DNA of 64,000 bases, taken from positions 62,001-126,000 of the forward strand of contig NZ_PNFP01000004.1 of the NCBI RefSeq assembly GCF_002940685.1, read 5' to 3'. Below are positions 26,874 through 51,116 of the stretch, piece by piece. Under the pieces are notes generated by a model, which did no database searches, was not told the origin of the DNA, and saw only the letters and a program-made list of their open reading frames with translations. The number at the start of each line of letters is the position of its first letter. Within the stretch, counting starts at the first letter, position 1. This stretch comes from Ensifer adhaerens (lineage in GTDB: Bacteria; Pseudomonadota; Alphaproteobacteria; Rhizobiales; Rhizobiaceae). Position numbers and translations under genes: made by a program.

Positions 26874-27899
26874 ATGGCCAAGACGATGAAGGCGGCCGTC
26901 GTTCGGCAGTTCCGCGCCCCCCTTGTGATTGAGGAAGCGGCGATGCCCACGCCGCAGGCGGGTCAGATCCTCGTCAAGTATGAAGCGACGGGCGTCTGCC
27001 ATACCGACCTTCATGCTGCCAATGGAGACTGGCCGGTGAAACCGAGCCCGCCGTTCATTCCAGGGCACGAAGGCGTTGGCTATGTCGCGGCGGTCGGTGC
27101 CGGCGTCATGCGAGTGAAGGAGGGGGACAGGGTGGGCGTTCCCTGGCTTCACAGCGCCTGTGGTTATTGCCCGCATTGTCGCACCGGTTGGGAGACACTT
27201 TGCGCGTCTCAGTCGAACACCGGATATTCGGTCAATGGAACGTTTGCCGAGTACGGATTGGCGGATCCGGACTTCGTTGGCAGCCTGCCTGACGCACTGG
27301 AGTTCGGTCCTGCTGCGCCGGTTCTGTGCGCCGGAGTAACCGTTTACAAGGGGCTGAAGGAAACGGAAGTCCGTCCCGGGGAATGGGTCGCCATCTCCGG
27401 CATCGGCGGTCTTGGCCACATGGCGGTACAGTATGCAAAGGCGATGGGCATGCATGTGGTCGCCGCCGACATCTTCGACGACAAGCTGGCGCTGGCAAGG
27501 CGGCTGGGCGCCGACATTACAGTCAACGGCAAGACGAAGGATGCCATCGAGCAGGTAACCAGAGCGACCGGCGGAGTGCACGGAGCGCTCGTAACCGCGG
27601 TTTCGCCTGCGGCGATGGAACAGGCGTTCGGATTCCTGCGATCGCGGGGAACGATGGCGCTCGTCGGCCTGCCCCCCGGGATGATCTCGATGCCGGTTTT
27701 CGAAACGGTTCTGAAGCGCATCACCGTGCGTGGATCGATCGTCGGTACCCGCCAGGACCTGGAGGAATCGCTGCAGTTTGCTGCTGAAGGCAAGGTGGCG
27801 CCGCATTTCTCATGGGACAGCCTGGAAAACATCAACGACATCTTCCACCGGATGGAAGCCGGAAAGATCGACGGTCGCATTGTAATGAGCCTGCAGTAG
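26874..27899 (+). CDS. adhP: Zinc-dependent alcohol dehydrogenase, AdhP type
   Basis: A 341-residue cytosolic medium-chain dehydrogenase that interconverts ethanol and acetaldehyde with NAD. Catalytic zinc ligands are C42 (GVCHTDLH) and H65/E66 (GHEGVGYV). The structural zinc cysteines are C96, C99, C102 and C110. The NAD-binding glycine motif is ISGIGGLGHMAVQYA. GGAGGATC precedes the ATG strongly. It lies about 200 bases before the fused ethanolamine ammonia-lyase gene in the same direction, and could process the acetaldehyde that enzyme would release. Confidence 0.92.
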   Translation: MAKTMKAAVVRQFRAPLVIEEAAMPTPQAGQILVKYEATGVCHTDLHAANGDWPVKPSPPFIPGHEGVGYVAAVGAGVMRVKEGDRVGVPWLHSACGYCPHCRTGWETLCASQSNTGYSVNGTFAEYGLADPDFVGSLPDALEFGPAAPVLCAGVTVYKGLKETEVRPGEWVAISGIGGLGHMAVQYAKAMGMHVVAADIFDDKLALARRLGADITVNGKTKDAIEQVTRATGGVHGALVTAVSPAAMEQAFGFLRSRGTMALVGLPPGMISMPVFETVLKRITVRGSIVGTRQDLEESLQFAAEGKVAPHFSWDSLENINDIFHRMEAGKIDGRIVMSLQ

Positions 27900-27921: not shown

Positions 27922-28103
27922 GGCGGGGAGCCGTTTCGTGCTTCAGTGGAACGGTGCCGTCTCGATCGAGGAAGCCGCGGGCCTGCGTTGACACCCTGAG
28001 TGGAGCATGTGTTGCGCGCCAGTCTGTGCGCCCTCTCAAGCAACCACCCACAACGGGGCCGTCCAGTGAATGCCAATAGACCTTCTGTAGAATGGAGATG
28101 GCA

Positions 28104-30452
28104 ATGAGCAAGGGCATGGTCCTGGATCAGCACACTCTGTCGAGACGAGATCTCCTGTTGGTGGCAGGGACTGCGGCGGCCACGCTCGCCACATACAGCC
28201 ACGCTGCCCGCGCAGCGCCGGGCGCAGGCACGCTTGTGATCGATGAAGTGAAGCAGGGCGAGGACATCTTTGCCTACGTCAGCAGGATCAAGGGCGGGTT
28301 TGACGAGACGACTTACAGACAGGTGCTGGGGTGTGCGAACGCGTTCAAGGAAGGCGATCAGACGATCGGGGTCGCCGCTGAAAATGACGCGGCGCGCGCG
28401 AATGCCCGGACCCTCCTTGCGAATACGAAGATCGGAGACCTTCACCAGCACCCGCTGCTTGAGGACGATCTGCAACGACTGATCTGGCAGACCACGGACA
28501 AGGCCCAGCATGAAAAAGTCAAGAACTGGACCATGGGCCAGCTGAAGGCATTTCTGCTGACCAAATCGGAAGAAGAGATCAAAGCGGTCATGAATGGTCT
28601 GACCAGCGATACCATCGGCTGCGTGCCGAAGCTCATGAGCAATGAGGAACTGATCTCCGTCAGCCAGAAGATCTTCAATGTCATGCCCGGCACCAAGCTG
28701 GGAGCCAAGGGGTACATGGGCGCGCGTATCCAGCCGAATTCGCCGACGGATCACCCCGAGGACATCATGTGGCAGGTCTTCGACGCGTTTTCCTATGCGA
28801 CCGGCGACATCGTCATCGGCACGAACCCGGTCGACAGCACCGTGGACAGCGTCGTTACGGTGGAGCGGGCGCTCAAGGACATTGTGGATACCTTCAAGCT
28901 GGTCGACGTCATTCCCTGGTGTGTGCTGGCCCATATCGACGTCCAGGGCGAGGTGAGCGATCGTTTCCCGGGGACGGTCGCGACCGTGTTCCAGAGCCTC
29001 GCCGGAACGGATGACTGCAACAAGATTTTCGACATCACCAATGACAAGATCCTGAAGTATGCAAGCGCGAAGGCAGGGGAAAGGTATGGTCTCTACTTCG
29101 AGACGGGGCAGGGCTCGGAGTTCACCAACGGCGTGGCAAACGGCGTCGACATGATGGTGCTCGAGTCGCGAAAGTATGGGTTCAGCAGAGCGATCGGCAT
29201 GGAGCTTGCGAAGGTGCAGCCCAAGGGCGCATGGCTCCATGTCAACGATGTTGCCGGCTTCATCGGGCCGGAGGTCTTCAAGAGCCGCGAACAGCTCGTC
29301 CGGTGCTGCCTCGAAGACATGGTCATGGGCAAGCTCCACGGGCTGACCATCGGCCTCGATATCTGCACAACCCTGCACATGACGGTCAGCCTGGACGATC
29401 TCGATTGGTGCCAGGACCAGATCATGCCGGCAAATCCCGCCTATCTGATCGCCTTGCCCACCAAGAACGACCCGATGCTGAGCTATCTCACGACCGCATT
29501 TCAGGACCACGTGCGTGTGAGGGAGAAATTCGGCTTCAAGGTCAACGATGCGATGTGGGATTTCTACAAGCGCATCGGGATCGTCGCCAGCGACAACAGC
29601 TATACGTCAAATTACGGAGACCCCCTCTGGGTCTATTACCAGTACCGCCTCGCCAAGGGTGACAAGCGGGCCAAGGACGCTGTCTATGCCGAAGGCAGGC
29701 TGATGATGGAGGCAGTCGAAGCGAGAGGCGTCGACCTGGCGACAGGACATGGAGACAAGATCTGGGATCTCAACCCGGCGCTCGCGACGAAAGTGAGGGG
29801 CCTGTATGACGACGCCAAGCAATCTCTGTGGGCCGAGCTCACACCGGAGTTTGTCGCCGCCGTACCCGGCGTCGTGCCGGTCCGCACCCTCTCCAAGGAC
29901 CGCAACGACTACATCGCGCACCCGACCACCGGAGAAACGCTGAGCCCGGAATCCGTCAGGGCGATTGACGCGATCAGGACGTCCTGGAAAGGCGATATGC
30001 CCAAGGGCCAGATCGTCATTTCAGATGGTCTGAACGCCAAGGCCATCATGGATGACGGCCATCTTTCGCCCTATCTGGAGGAAATGCGCAGGCTGCTCGG
30101 TGCTGCCGGCGTCTCGGTGAGCGACAAGAACATCCTGGTCACCAGCGGCCGAGTACGGGCCGGCTACCGGATTGGCGAGATGCTGTTTGCCGACGCCGAT
30201 CCCAACACGTTTCGAGGAATTCTCCACATCATCGGCGAACGGCCCGGAACCATGCACCACGCCTACTCGGTCTACATCACCGTAGCGAAGGGAAAGCGTT
30301 GGGCTGAGAAGGATATCGATCACGATATGACGAAGCTGGTCAGCAACGTCGCCGACACAGCACTTGCACCCAAGGAGGCGGCGAAGGAAACCTTGACCAT
30401 TATCCGGGAGATCATCGGCAAGGACGTGAACGGCAGTCGGCGATTTGGTTGA
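28104..30452 (+). CDS. eutBC: Fused ethanolamine ammonia-lyase (EutB+EutC) with a Tat signal
   Basis: A 782-residue chain. Residues 13-19 (SRRDLLL) and the following hydrophobic stretch form a twin-arginine signal, with a likely cleavage site after A37 (ARA|APG). Residues about 45-512 align with EutB: the substrate-binding residues known for the E. coli enzyme (R160, Q162, N193, E287, D362) correspond to R208, Q210, N241, E333 and D419. Residues about 590-782 align with EutC (VISDGLNAKAI, GRVRAGYRIGE, IIGERPG), but the usual N-terminal GRAGPRPRT motif of EutC is missing. The family uses adenosylcobalamin to convert ethanolamine to acetaldehyde and ammonia. GGAG six bases before 28104 decides the start. 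No eutA, permease or shell genes are nearby. Confidence 0.85.
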   Translation: MSKGMVLDQHTLSRRDLLLVAGTAAATLATYSHAARAAPGAGTLVIDEVKQGEDIFAYVSRIKGGFDETTYRQVLGCANAFKEGDQTIGVAAENDAARANARTLLANTKIGDLHQHPLLEDDLQRLIWQTTDKAQHEKVKNWTMGQLKAFLLTKSEEEIKAVMNGLTSDTIGCVPKLMSNEELISVSQKIFNVMPGTKLGAKGYMGARIQPNSPTDHPEDIMWQVFDAFSYATGDIVIGTNPVDSTVDSVVTVERALKDIVDTFKLVDVIPWCVLAHIDVQGEVSDRFPGTVATVFQSLAGTDDCNKIFDITNDKILKYASAKAGERYGLYFETGQGSEFTNGVANGVDMMVLESRKYGFSRAIGMELAKVQPKGAWLHVNDVAGFIGPEVFKSREQLVRCCLEDMVMGKLHGLTIGLDICTTLHMTVSLDDLDWCQDQIMPANPAYLIALPTKNDPMLSYLTTAFQDHVRVREKFGFKVNDAMWDFYKRIGIVASDNSYTSNYGDPLWVYYQYRLAKGDKRAKDAVYAEGRLMMEAVEARGVDLATGHGDKIWDLNPALATKVRGLYDDAKQSLWAELTPEFVAAVPGVVPVRTLSKDRNDYIAHPTTGETLSPESVRAIDAIRTSWKGDMPKGQIVISDGLNAKAIMDDGHLSPYLEEMRRLLGAAGVSVSDKNILVTSGRVRAGYRIGEMLFADADPNTFRGILHIIGERPGTMHHAYSVYITVAKGKRWAEKDIDHDMTKLVSNVADTALAPKEAAKETLTIIREIIGKDVNGSRRFG

Positions 30453-30601: not shown

Positions 30602-31264
30602 TTATGGACGGGGCGTCGGCCTCTCTGGGCCCGTAGCGGCCGGAAGACCGAGCTCGAAGCGAGCGAGCTCGCACTGCCGATCAATAAGCTCAAGCAACTT
30701 CTCACCTAAGGCAGCGGTAGGCTTGTCGGAATCTGACCAACGGTACATGGAGCCGTCTTGTAGGGATAAAACGGCGAAATCGTCAGGGCGGTTTTCAACC
30801 GGATAACGCGTCGCAACGGTAGACAGAGCCGCGAGCACGAGAGTCGCAGTGAGTGGATGCTTCGTATTCCAAACATGTACCGCAGTGCGTCGCCCGTTGA
30901 TCTCCAACAGAAAATCCGGAGTGAAGTTGACCTTGAACAAGCTTTTTGGGCTGTTGTAAATCAACCCATCGCAAGCGCTTAGGGGGCCTGGATTAACGTG
31001 CCGCCATTGGAAGAAGCGCAACAGGCCGCGCTTCGCCGACTCGCGTTCGGGTGTTTTTTTAATCTGCGTCACGGAAGCCAACGCGGCCGTCGGCGAAATT
31101 CCATCAAATGCGATTTGACGAATACGTTGCCTCAAGCTCTTGTGGTAGTCATAGCCACCTTCGCTCGGAACATACCGTTCACGAACGATGCGTCTTTGAG
31201 GCTTAGGGTTGGAGTTTATGATTTTCAGGAAGGCCGAGAAGCCGATCGTCGGAGTCTGAGACAT
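30602..31264 (-). CDS. Hypothetical protein, orphan
   Basis: A 220-residue basic, soluble protein with AAAGGA before the start. The middle (TPDFLLEINGRRTAVHVWNTK) superficially resembles a PD-(D/E)xK nuclease core: a hydrophobic strand ending in PD, then a second strand ending NTK where E-x-K would be expected. The resemblance is weak because the acidic residue is Asn. The C terminus has a helix with DRQCELARFELGL. It lies between the ethanolamine ammonia-lyase gene and nrdJ, and its base composition is lower in GC than neighbours, suggesting transfer. Function unknown. Confidence 0.6.
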   Translation of the reverse strand: MSQTPTIGFSAFLKIINSNPKPQRRIVRERYVPSEGGYDYHKSLRQRIRQIAFDGISPTAALASVTQIKKTPERESAKRGLLRFFQWRHVNPGPLSACDGLIYNSPKSLFKVNFTPDFLLEINGRRTAVHVWNTKHPLTATLVLAALSTVATRYPVENRPDDFAVLSLQDGSMYRWSDSDKPTAALGEKLLELIDRQCELARFELGLPAATGPERPTPRP

Positions 31265-31605: not shown

Positions 31606-34600
31606 TTAGCTGCAACCGCTCGTTGCGCCGCAGGTGTCGCACTTCTCGCAGGTGCCGTTGCGCACCATCGTGAAGTTCTGGCACTCGGTGCACATGTTGC
31701 CGGTGTAGCCCTGCATGATCGAGCGGGCGCGGCGTTCGGCTTCCACCTTCTTGGCGTCCGACTTGGCCGATGCCGCTTCGGCGGCGGCCTTGTCGGAGAA
31801 GAGGGCGGTCACTTCCTGCTCGACTTCGGTGGCGACCTCTTCGGCCAGTTCCGCAGCGCGTTCTTCATAGTCGCGCTTGAAAGCGACGATTTCCGAGGTG
31901 GCGATCGAGGTCGTCGTTTCCAGCTTGCGCACCGTGTTGCCGGCGATCGCCGTTACGGTAGAACCCGAGGAGGCGCGGGCGGGCGCTCCCGTCGACGAGC
32001 CCTTCGGCTCGCTGGAGGCCCGGTCACCGGTGCCGCCGACGATGGTCGGCTTGTAGCCGCGGGTCCAGCCGGTCGAGATCAGGTTGGTCTTGCCTTCCTG
32101 GATGCCCTTGCCGAGCGCCGTGTTGCCGAAGTCGGAGGTGTCGACATGGGCAAGGTCGTGGCGGCCGAGATAGGAGACCGCCAGTTCGCGGAAGACGTAG
32201 TCGAGGATCGACGTCGCGTTCTTGATCGCGTCGTTGCCCTGGACCATGCCGGCCGGCTCGAACTTGGTGAAGGTGAAGGCCTCCACATATTCTTCGAGCG
32301 GCACGCCATACTGCAGGCCGAGCGAGATGGCGATCGCGAAGTTGTTCATCATCGCGCGGAAGGCAGCACCTTCCTTGTGCATGTCGATGAAGATCTCGCC
32401 GAGGCGGCCGTCACCAAATTCGCCGGTGCGCAGATAGACCTTGTGGCCACCGACGACGGCCTTCTGGGTGTAGCCCTGGCGGCGGTTCGGCAGCTTTTCG
32501 CGGGCGCGGATCACCTTCTCGATGACGCGCTCGACGATCTTTTCGGTGATGGTGACGGCCTGGGCGGCGGCCGGCGCCTGGATCAGATCCTCCAGCGCAT
32601 CCTCGTCCTTGTCGTCTTCGATCAGCGAGGCGTTGAGCGGCTGCGAAAGCTTGGAGCCGTCGCGATAAAGAGCGTTCGCCTTCAGTGCCAGCTTCCAGGA
32701 GAGCATGTAGGCGTTCTTGCAATCCTCGACGGTCGCCTCGTTCGGCATGTTGATCGTCTTGGAGATCGCGCCCGAGATGAACGGCTGGGCAGCCGCCATC
32801 ATGCGGATGTGGCTTTCGACCGACAGGTAGCGCTTGCCGATCTTGCCGCAGGGGTTGGCGCAATCGAAGACCGGCAGGTGCTCGTTCTTCAGGAACGGCG
32901 CGCCTTCGAGCGTCATCGCACCGCAGACGTGGATGTTGGCCGCCTCGATGTCCTTCTTGGTGAAGCCCATGTGGTCGAGCAGGTTGAAGTCCATCGCGCC
33001 GAGCTGTTCGTCGGTGACCTTCAGCGTGCCCTTCAGGAAGTCGGCGCCAAGCGTCCACTGGTTGAAGACGAACTTGATGTCGAACGCGCTCTTCAGCGCG
33101 GCGTTGACCGCTTCCACCTTCTCGTCGGTGAAGCCCTTGGCCTTCAGCGTCGACGGGTTGATCGCCGGCGCCTGGTTCAGGTTGCCGTGGCCGACTGCGT
33201 AGGCCTCGATCTCGGCGATCTGGCTTTCGCCATAGCCGAGCGAGCGCAGCGCTTCGGGAACCGCGCGGTTGATGATCTTGAAGTAGCCGCCGCCGGCGAG
33301 CTTCTTGAACTTGACGAGCGCGAAGTCGGGCTCGATGCCGGTCGTGTCGCAGTCCATGACAAGCCCGATCGTGCCGGTCGGCGCGATAACCGTTGCCTGG
33401 GCGTTGCGGTAGCCGTGCTTTTCGCCGAGTTCCAGCGCCTTGTCCCATGCGCTCATGGCGTGGATGACGAGGTCCTGGTCCGGATTGTCGCCATGGATGA
33501 GGGCGACCGGGTTGACCGAGAGCGCCTCGTAACCGGTCGTCTCGCCATAGGCGGCGCGGCGGTGGTTGCGGATGACGCGCAGCATGTTGTCGCGGTTCGG
33601 GGCAAAGCCCGGGAACGGACCGAGCTTCTCGGCCATCTCGGCCGAGGTGGCGTAGGAGACACCGGTCATGATCGCGGTCAGCGCACCGGCGATGGCGCGG
33701 CCTTCGGCGCTGTCATAGGGGATGCCCGACGACATCAGGAGGCCGCCGATATTGGCGTAGCCGAGGCCGAGCGTACGGTATTCGTAGGAAAGTTCGGCAA
33801 TCTCGCGGGACGGGAACTGCGCCATCATGACCGAGACTTCGAGGACCATGGTCCAGAGACGGACGGCATGCTCGTAATCGGCGATGTTGATGCGCTTGGT
33901 CGCCGCATCCTTGAACGTCATCAGGTTCAGCGAGGCGAGGTTGCAGGCGGTGTCGTCGAGGAACATGTATTCCGAGCACGGGTTCGACGCGCGGATCGGG
34001 CCGGCGGCCGGGCTTGTGTGCCAGTCGTTCATCGTCGTGTTGAAGTGCAGGCCCGGATCGGCCGACGCCCAGGCGGCGTAGGAGATCGACTCCCAGAGGT
34101 CGCGGGCCTTGAGCGTCTTCAGCACGCGGCCGTCCTTGCGGGCGGTCAGGTGCCAGTCGCCATCGGCCTCGACGGCGCGCAGGAAGTCGTCCTTGATCGA
34201 GACCGAATTGTTGGAGTTCTGGCCCGAAACCGTGAGGTAGGCTTCCGAATCCCAGTCGGTGTCGTAGGTCTTGAACTCGAGGTCCTTGTAGCCCTGCTTG
34301 GCGAACTGGATGACGCGCTGGACGTAGTTTTCCGGAACCAGCGCCTGCTTGGCAGCGCGGATCTCGCGCTTCAGCGCCGGGTTCTGCTTCGGGTCATAGC
34401 AGGCGTCGTCGGTACCGTCGCAGTTGACGCAGGCCTTCATGATCGCCTTCAGGTGCTTGGCGACGACCTTGGAACCGGTGACGAGGGCTGCAACCTTCTG
34501 CTCTTCCTTGACCTTCCAGTTGATGTATTCCTCGATGTCCGGATGGTCGATGTCGACGACGACCATCTTGGCGGCGCGGCGGGTGGTGCCGCCCGACTTG

Positions 34601-35403
34601 ATTGCGCCTGCAGCGCGGTCGCCGATCTTCAGGAACGACATCAGGCCCGAGGACTTGCCGCCGCCCGAAAGCTTTTCGCCTTCGCTGCGCAGATACGAGA
34701 AGTTGGAGCCGGTGCCCGAGCCGTACTTGAACAGGCGCGCTTCACGCACCCAGAGATCCATGATCCCGCCTTCGTTGACGAGATCGTCACCGACCGACTG
34801 GATGAAGCAGGCATGCGGCTGCGGATGCTCATAGGCCGACTTGGACTTGGTCAGCTTGCCGGTAAAGGGGTCGACGTAGAAGTGGCCCTGGCCGGGACCG
34901 TCGATGCCATAGGCCCAGTGCAGGCCGGTGTTGAACCACTGCGGCGAGTTCGGGGCGACGCGCTGGGTGGCAAGCATATAGGCGAGTTCGTCCTGGAAGG
35001 CGGAGGCGTCTTCTTCGGTATCGAAGTAGCCGCCCTTCCAGCCCCAGTAGGCCCAGGTGCCGGCCAGGCGATCGAAGACCTGGCGGGCATCGGTTTCGGA
35101 ACCGTACTGCTCTTCCTTCGGCAGCGCCTTCAGCGCATCCGTGTCGGGAACCGAGCGCCAGAGGAAGGAGGGGACATCGTTCTCCTCGACGCGCTTCATC
35201 TTGGCGGGAACGCCAGCCTTGCGGAAATACTTCTGGGCGAGAATGTCGGCGGCAACCTGGCTGAACTGCGCCGGAACGTCGATATCGGCCAGGCGGAAAA
35301 CGATCGAACCATCGGGGTTCTTGATTTCACTCGTAGCCTTGCGGAATTCGATCTCCGCATAGGCGGATTGCCCGGCCTTGGTGAAACGACGTTCGATCTT
35401 CAT
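31606..35403 (-). CDS. nrdJ: Adenosylcobalamin-dependent ribonucleotide reductase (class II)
   Basis: A 1265-residue enzyme that reduces ribonucleotides using AdoCbl, giving oxygen-independent dNTP supply. The [21 protein letters not shown] segment carries the substrate-binding and catalytic residues of the barrel. The C-terminal zinc-ribbon-like tail has paired cysteines ([20 protein letters not shown]) that shuttle electrons. Length fits the large alphaproteobacterial NrdJ. The start at 35403 is supported by AGGACAAGGGA; the frame is open further upstream without homology. An NrdR-like palindrome sits about 150 bases upstream. Confidence 0.96.
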
Positions 35404-36188
35404 TGTCCCTTGTCCTTCGTGTTGCCTCGCGCCCGCGAAAGGCGCAATTGTCCCCGCCCGGTCGCGAGGGCATCCCGCAACCAGTCTCAGCTTCCGTCTT
35501 TGGAGGGAAACCCATTCCTGGGTGACCCTGTATCTTGTGAGATAGGCTGGCTGCAAATACTAAATATAGTATCAACAGCTTCTTCATGCCAGCCAAATGT
35601 TGCCCCGGTGGACCCAAAAGAGCGCACAGAAATCCTCAGGGCGACCGCATGGTGAAATCCATGACTGCCGCCTGTCAGAACCGCCGATTTGGGGAGAGGA
35701 ACCGGGACTTGAACAATCCGGTCCGCCGCCGTTGCAACGTGAAATCCATTAACCGTGAATCGTCCGGGGGCGTCAAGGGGTGGTTTGTGACGGAAGTTTG
35801 AGCCCTAGATGTTGTGTGGACGAGCTGTGGAAAACGGGGACATCGACCAACTCCATGAAAATCAGGCACTTCCGGAGGTTGCCTGTGAGACTGACGCAAC
35901 GGTCGGCGCGCAAACGAAATTTTGACGGGTAAAAACCCGCATAAAAACTGTCCGTTACGGCAAGCTTGGTTGCGTCGGCGAAAACGATATGGGGTGGGGC
36001 AGTGATTCGTTTTTTAGCGGGATCGCAAGAGTGCGGTTTGCTTCGCCAAGGGAGCCAGAATCGCGGTCTGCGGACGAACGCGATGGCCCCTGCGACCAGC
36101 CTGAATATGGTGTCGATTGGCCGTGGCACGCGATGCGGCGTGGAGGGAAGCCAGATGCGCGTCCACGCGCACCTAGCCCAGGCTGATG
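35404..36188. other. Long intergenic region upstream of nrdJ
   Basis: 785 bases. It contains the NrdR-like box at 35557-35572, a weaker palindrome TATCTTGTGAGATA at 35531-35544, and small hairpins (CGGGTAAAAACCCG near 35927; CAGGCA...TGCCTG near 35866). No cobalamin riboswitch elements were seen. A long minus-strand open frame through it lacks a start and protein-like composition. Confidence 0.5.
35557..35572. promoter_or_regulatory. NrdR-like box upstream of nrdJ
   Basis: ATACTAAATATAGTAT is near-palindromic and matches the core of the NrdR consensus (C-W-A-n-A-T-A-T-W-G). NrdR represses ribonucleotide reductase genes when dATP is high, which fits its place 154-169 bases before nrdJ. NrdR boxes usually come in pairs; the second candidate (35531-35544) is weak. 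Confidence 0.65.
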
Positions 36189-50794: not shown

Positions 50795-50913
50795 AAAAAA
50801 AGAGGGCCTCAAGAAAACTTGGGCCCTTGTAGTTGTGAAGGTAATGAGAACCTCCAGAGGGGAACAGCTAATGCGGTGGCGGGGAGGAGAAGCCACCAAG
50901 AATGCATCAGCTG
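50795..50913 (-). ncRNA. AbcR-type (alpha-r15) small RNA, promoter-distal copy
   Basis: Minus strand, about 119 nt. It ends in the hairpin GGGCCCAAG...CTTGAGGCCC followed by TCTTTTTTT. An unpaired CTCCTCCC anti-Shine-Dalgarno-like stretch and TTCCCCTCTGGAGGTT match the AbcR seed regions. It has its own promoter, TTGAAA-N17-CATATT (50943-50948 and 50920-50925). AbcR RNAs repress ABC-transporter mRNAs by base pairing with Hfq. Confidence 0.82.
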
Positions 50914-50995: not shown

Positions 50996-51116
50996 CAAAA
51001 AAAGAGGGCCACAAGATGACTTGGGCCCTTATAAGTTGTGAAGGTAATTAAACCTCCAGAGGGGAACAGCTGCTGCGGTGGCACTGGGAGGAGAAGCCAC
51101 CAAAGATGCATCAGCT
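50996..51116 (-). ncRNA. AbcR-type (alpha-r15) small RNA, promoter-proximal copy
   Basis: Minus strand, about 121 nt, tandem with the other copy and nearly the same sequence. It ends GGGCCCAAG...CTTGTGGCCC followed by TCTTTTTTT. It shares the CTCCTCCC and TTCCCCTCTGGAGG single-stranded segments and the conserved 5' AGCTGATGCAT. The two copies differ mainly in loops. In S. meliloti the tandem pair AbcR1/AbcR2 lies next to lsrB, as here; which copy is which is not decided from sequence alone. Confidence 0.85.

Follow-up and report, generated by a model that had tools for sequence, protein, structure and literature searches.

A fused ethanolamine ammonia-lyase with a predicted export signal in Ensifer adhaerens and its relatives

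In Ensifer adhaerens, the EutB and EutC parts of ethanolamine ammonia-lyase (EAL) are encoded as one chain that begins with a twin-arginine (Tat) signal peptide. Judging from sequence comparisons, we consider it probable that this protein is an extracytoplasmic EAL, exported by Tat here and by Sec in many relatives, which deaminates ethanolamine in the periplasm. EAL is a vitamin B12 radical enzyme that normally consists of two proteins and resides inside the cell. The fusion and its gene setting are already known from Pelobacter carbinolicus, as far as the available text of that study goes (PMC3543383), and the new part is the export. A literature search confined largely to openly accessible work yielded no description of an exported EAL.

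Domain layout and active site

The gene occupies positions 28104..30452 on the forward strand of the window, by which we mean the whole stretch of 64,000 nucleotides that was analyzed, and its 782-aa translation contains no stop codon. An alternative in-frame ATG lies at 28092, and 28104 has the better upstream GGAG as judged by eye. By inspection, residues 1-37 (28104..28214, +) form a Tat signal peptide with SRRDLLL, a hydrophobic core and an A-R-A cleavage site. The EutB domain (residues 71-501; 28314..29606, +) includes R208, Q210, N241, E333, and D419 and matches PF06751 (E 1.5e-143, 479.2 bits, gathering cut-off 25) as well as the NCBIfam model NF011649 (639.6 bits, cut-off 554). It is followed by an interdomain linker, defined as the gap between the Pfam matches (residues 502-544; 29607..29735, +), and by the EutC domain (residues 545-777; 29736..30434, +), which is delimited by alignment and by PF05985 (E 1e-30, 107.3 bits, gathering cut-off 25.8) and scores below the cut-off of the NCBIfam EutC equivalog (82.3 bits, cut-off 230). 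Translation and Pfam agree with an earlier note on this DNA, which had described a single 782-aa chain carrying a Tat signal, EutB and EutC. A protein search of the 7.5-Mb genome with the window EAL returns only the query itself and no second EAL.

The EutC domain retains the motifs SDGL, GRV, and GERPG. The segment GRAGPRPRT is absent from the alignment with canonical EutC, as the earlier note had stated, and GHG..IWDLN stands at its place; in the canonical comparison, Thioclava EutC has GRSGAGLPT at this position. The placement in a separate branch of the EAL family is borne out; identity to the canonical EutB proteins of the class sample is 32-37%.

Residues R208, Q210, N241, E333, and D419 align with R160, Q162, N193, E287, and D362 of E. 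coli EutB, which we take to be the ethanolamine contacts. Their conservation, claimed from the single sequence, extends to 88/88 rows of the clade, in which S298, V383, F386, M458, and L459 are invariant as well. Across 50 compared rows, the residue aligned with E. coli E257 is I, T, or V, and in Thioclava it is G. This replacement and the loss of GRAGPRPRT count against the explanation of the protein as an extracytoplasmic EAL.

Structural comparison points to a shared fold of both domains with the EAL subunits. In a Foldseek search against the PDB, the two domains of the model match EAL structures, with hits to 2qez_A (E 2.5e-18), 3abo_A (2.4e-17), 7xrm_B (2.0e-10), and 3abo_B (6.0e-10). This comparison used the first of two structure predictions (35 and 24 alignment rows, mean pLDDT 69 each, barrel core <50), whose quality suffices for a fold match and nothing finer. 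The window protein has domain folds, substrate residues and several EutC motifs in common with the canonical enzymes of E. coli and Thioclava (PDB 3ABO, 2QEZ), but it is one chain with a signal peptide, whereas canonical EutB and EutC are two chains.

Canonical EAL genes are adjoined by eutA and eutH (E. coli) or by a permease gene (Thioclava). A tblastn search of the 64-kb window, run with one query each for EutA, EutH, and EutL of E. coli and for the Thioclava ethanolamine permease, gave no match, in line with the earlier statement that no eutA, permease or shell gene is found here. EutA also gave no match in 87 context loci (single-query tblastn), with no eutA adjoining any copy examined, and EutH gave none in the loci searched by tblastn. 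In the organism's own genome, EutA is represented by one partial PF06277 match, which covers 73 of 475 positions in a 561-aa frame and scores 26.6 bits, or 27.4 bits with its neighbours in the frame, at a cut-off of 27. Because the PF06277 search also gives matches in 5/14 control genomes, above the cut-off in 4, we read the partial match as presumably another ATPase of that fold and not EutA. The permease model TIGR00908 has two weak matches in the own genome (72 and 56.7 bits, cut-off 381.75).

Export signals and phylogeny

The N-termini were read in 88 rows representing 87 genes of the clade (L071 and L157 are one gene); Tat or Sec was assigned by motif and hydrophobicity, and cleavage sites by inspection. 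The window protein begins with LSRRDLLLVAG...ARA, and R14 and R15 are invariant in 15/15 close homologues. In 28/28 Rhizobiales rows, the RR motif precedes a hydrophobic stretch, which supports the Tat signal first noticed on the fused EAL, and the sequence around RR varies. Tabulating the fused homologues, as the earlier note had proposed, gives a second picture among the Desulfobacterota-type rows: 11/60 carry a Tat signal (10 genes), 45 a Sec-type signal and 4 are ambiguous or cut. Sec-type leaders are more hydrophobic, many end in A-x-A, and 42 lack the RR motif; the other three (L124, L170, L175) start with MRR. Identity to the window protein, where measured in these Sec-type relatives, is 58-65%. 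The Tat leader of the Geobacter-type copies, MKRRDFLKL or MERRDFLKL, is very unlike that of the Rhizobiales. As a control, 30 open frames were listed from 33 canonical EutB loci; RR lies upstream in 3/30 of these frames, which extend past the true starts, and is joined by a hydrophobic stretch in 0/30.

Outside the 28/11/45 counts are L076 and L173, whose N-terminus is cut, L176, in which TRREF is present without the usual start codon ahead, and L172, whose Sec-like signal depends on a start at an upstream ATG. The set excludes L082 (matching residues 327-399 only, 42%) and the frame-broken L033; the latter is the Ensifer canadensis copy (L033:9998-12342), in which the frame is broken within the EutC part. 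The Tat copies L031, L032, L034, and L035 and the aligned L036-L047 are not among the 88, nor are the N-termini of L142, L145, L146, L147, L135, G1664:C278, G1548, G1768, and a 130-residue piece in G1501.

The signal is apparently kept as a function and not as a sequence, with export maintained by selection and the route exchangeable. The earlier note had explained Tat as a means to export a folded, AdoCbl-loaded enzyme, and this reason is weakened by the 45 relatives with Sec-type signals. Sec threads unfolded chains. Since the Sec-type relatives carry Sec signals, they would have to bind AdoCbl outside the cytoplasm, if AdoCbl is used. Retention of export but not of its route undercuts the argument that AdoCbl is bound during export and favors an enzyme with an external site of action which, in the Sec members at any rate, would also be loaded there. 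For the Tat members, AdoCbl loading inside the cell is possible.

The phylogeny rests on the EutB part of 68 rows with leaders excluded (quick search, SH-aLRT support only); 17 Rhizobiales rows were thinned, 8/32 canonical rows were used and L194 was left out. A set of seventeen rows was entered as Sec, including L172, and L076 was labeled Tat though its N-terminus is cut. All exported rows form one clade (SH-aLRT 99), the sister of which consists of six signal-less fused enzymes (99). These Desulfobacterota-type proteins (L126, L189-L193) have the same fusion and are 34-41% identical; L126 has family-specific residues in common with the exported clade but lacks the N-terminal signal. In one Tat clade (97), the Rhizobiales lie within a deltaproteobacterial assemblage, a placement suggestive of gene transfer of the exported EAL into Rhizobiales. 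A small second Tat clade (97) sits among Sec rows, and a minimum of two Sec/Tat switches is found on the tree. A second, independent fused EAL (L127, L128, L129; frames of 705-706 aa, without signal, 28-30% identical) groups with the canonical enzymes in the tree.

Fused near-full matches occur in 13/394 genomes of the family, counting the own genome, and in 1/397 of the order (the own genome). Of 385 genomes in the class sample, 28 have a match, and in 27 of these, all except the own genome, it is a canonical-type EutB. Among 148 plasmid records with a match, 25 exceed 60% identity, nearly all from Sinorhizobium. A scan of named contigs, using search patterns derived from the close family, returned 34 fused loci (69-93% identity) in 27 Rhizobiales and 7 deltaproteobacterial assemblies. 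Rhizobiales with fused loci include Ensifer, Sinorhizobium, Rhizobium, Mesorhizobium, Phyllobacterium, Mycoplana, Bradyrhizobium, Microvirga, and others, and a canonical pair occurs beside the fused gene in 1/13 genomes re-searched (Bradyrhizobium). EAL matches at E<=1e-30 occur in 32/345 genomes of the phylum of the Geobacter-type assembly, 16 of them to the fused clade (55-73%). In the class of that assembly, a Sec-type query finds matches at E<=1e-100 in 38/277 genomes, several with two copies and six with only the signal-less sister type. Three small class-level searches of 17, 3, and 22 genomes gave 6, 3, and 8 matches.

Gene neighborhoods

Enzymes that act on acetaldehyde or acetyl phosphate, such as AdhP, phosphoketolase and aldehyde:ferredoxin oxidoreductase (AOR), are frequent neighbors of the fused lyases. 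Directly upstream of the window lyase and on the same strand lies adhP, encoding a zinc alcohol dehydrogenase (26874..27899, +; NF006940 AdhP 364 bits, cut-off 344; Pfam), which ends 204 bp before the lyase. An adhP orthologue is found nearby in 19/32 Rhizobiales rows (window included) and directly upstream (<300 bp) in 10; the 18 other orthologues are 67-94% identical to the window adhP. Either adhP or phosphoketolase is present in 25/32 rows, and the 7 rows with neither within the flank examined count against the pathway proposed below. All these neighbor counts are raw row counts that include related rows, and some flanks end early. On pSymA of S. meliloti, the order is CBS-BON protein, adhP, phosphoketolase, histidine phosphatase, GH94, glycoamylase, EAL. 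As gene order differs between lineages, the lyase and its neighbors would stay together through rearrangement. No corrinoid-type importer was found among the recurrent neighbors of the Rhizobiales copies, and no cobalamin riboswitch reaches the Rfam gathering score in the window or in 10 regions of a 19-region set.

Several further features were seen in the window and in other loci. A class II, B12-dependent ribonucleotide reductase (31606-35556, -; PF08471/PF02867) lies ~1.2 kb downstream of the lyase, and the close relative L048 has a member of this reductase gene cluster next to its lyase. The 220-aa frame in between (30602-31264, -) has no Pfam/NCBIfam match at E 0.001. The small RNA ar15 (Rfam RF02345) occurs twice in close succession on the reverse strand, at 50798-50912 and 51000-51116. 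A DUF3300 and DUF2950 pair lies near the lyase in L034, L055, L069, and L072, and L032 and L073 each have a single member of the pair; these genes were assigned by gene clusters and by Pfam on L055 and L069 only. Control of the window lyase by a low-oxygen regulon is unsupported, as no TTGA-N6-TCAA (FNR/FixK-type) box was found in a 26-kb window segment. Across the loci, 14 such sites occur in 9/39, which is about chance level (estimated without shuffles). FNR/FixK-like palindromes stand in plausible promoter spots in two loci: L065 has one ~240 bp ahead of adhP, and L031 has two ahead of its CBS-adhP cluster. For these loci, such a regulon is possible.

The Desulfobacterota-type copies have other neighbors. 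Among 23 deltaproteobacterial-type rows, which include the signal-less L126 and were grouped by clustering, an AOR cluster occurs in 9 (8.8 kb away in L111; Pfam-checked on two). Of these 23 rows, 8 have a Gcw_chp-like protein (3/4 tested have a Pfam match) and 6 a membrane protein without assigned family. In 5 rows, an ABC ATPase comes immediately after the membrane protein or the lyase, and the Peripla_BP_2 lipoprotein and the FecCD permease are each present in 3 rows. Pta and AckA lie directly upstream of the lyase in one Tat row. In the Pelobacter-kind loci (10 loci, 11 EAL genes), the membrane protein stands behind the gene in 11/11, followed by ATPase and lipoprotein in 6/11; 1 locus is cut and 4 have neither in the stretch examined. 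In NCBIfam, the ATPase and the permease come closest to corrinoid/BtuC models, below their cut-offs, and the lipoprotein to a general ABC substrate-binding model. The membrane protein behind Sec-type lyases is seen, for example, at L113:10122-10919 and L178:10875-11594, and the copies in L114 and L120 have no Pfam match.

According to the available text of the 2012 study, P. carbinolicus has two fused eutBC genes (Pcar_0491 and Pcar_0467, eutBC1/eutBC2) that are 70% identical, no eutA, and a cluster with a corrinoid-related transporter and an acetaldehyde:ferredoxin oxidoreductase, and its strains grow on ethanolamine or choline (PMC3543383). Genome G1626 matches this organism, with two EAL copies that are 70.8% identical and 26 kb apart and with corresponding neighbors. 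EutB-EutC fusion and missing eutA resemble the window as far as that text goes, and the identity between the G1626 EALs and the window protein is 59-60%. Both G1626 copies begin with a Sec-type signal, whereas the window protein has Tat, and the available text of PMC3543383 does not mention export of the fused EAL. It proposes multitransmembrane neighbors as substrate carriers (PMC3543383), a role which would not be needed if the enzyme is exported.

Proposed pathway and alternatives

In the pathway that we infer, the fused chain would be exported, its signal cleaved, and ethanolamine converted in the periplasm to acetaldehyde and ammonium by AdoCbl-dependent radical deamination. Acetaldehyde would diffuse back across the inner membrane and be handled inside by AdhP in Rhizobiales or by aldehyde:ferredoxin oxidoreductase in the Desulfobacterota type. 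As AdhP and AOR are presumably cytoplasmic, the need for the product to re-enter the cell is a point against this pathway. At an external site, an ethanolamine permease would no longer be needed and the aldehyde-releasing step would be kept out of the cytoplasm. More tentatively, and with less likelihood than export itself, a full extracytoplasmic AdoCbl cycle might exist, with uptake of AdoCbl and cleavage in the periplasm and, in the Sec type, corrinoid re-import and re-adenosylation in place of EutA. There, an adjoining Btu-like importer would return spent corrinoid for re-adenosylation, replacing the EutA reactivase. As no corrinoid importer is among the recurrent Rhizobiales neighbors, such recycling may be limited to the Sec type.

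The Peripla_BP_2 lipoprotein, FecCD permease and ABC ATPase at some Sec-type loci, the latter two closest to the corrinoid/BtuC models though below cut-offs, would also fit an exported corrinoid-binding protein, in which the EAL fold captures or stores periplasmic cobamides for import without catalysis. However, binding alone would not need contact residues that are invariant in 88/88 rows, the adhP, AOR, and Pta-AckA neighbors could handle EAL products, and the importer is not seen among recurrent Rhizobiales neighbors; we regard this explanation as very unlikely. An exported lyase for another amino alcohol, such as 2-aminopropanol or a choline-like compound, seems rather unlikely too. The low identity to canonical EutB would leave room for it, and the authors of the P. 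carbinolicus study, in its available text, suggest that the two copies may divide ethanolamine and choline (PMC3543383). Against it stand the invariant contact residues and the neighbors, which indicate acetaldehyde, the product of ethanolamine, although choline cleavage yields acetaldehyde too. The altered substrate considered in the earlier note is for these reasons unsupported, many neighbors handling acetaldehyde.

The N-terminal segment might, moreover, serve as a membrane anchor or an unused leader and leave the enzyme cytoplasmic or at the inner face. Anchoring is conceivable where a Cys lies near the end of the hydrophobic core, as seen by eye in three rows (L062, L068, L081). Yet the charged n-region, the hydrophobic core and the frequent A-x-A would place the body outside, RR is retained amid diverged context, and two signal types occur on one body, which makes this reading highly improbable.

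AdoCbl radical enzymes are treated as cytoplasmic, and we know of none outside the cytoplasm. If true, an extracytoplasmic AdoCbl cycle would make the exported EAL the first such enzyme known. EAL needs EutA for the removal of damaged cofactor, according to the available text of PMC5821096. A clade that swaps Sec and Tat yet stays exported poses the question whether an AdoCbl enzyme is loaded and renewed outside the cytoplasm. Its hosts include cultured P. carbinolicus and the genetically tractable Sinorhizobium meliloti, in which loss of tat may be lethal, going by the title of a work cited in PMC3305326. Export of the fused EAL offers an explanation for how ethanolamine might be used without permease, shell or eutA.
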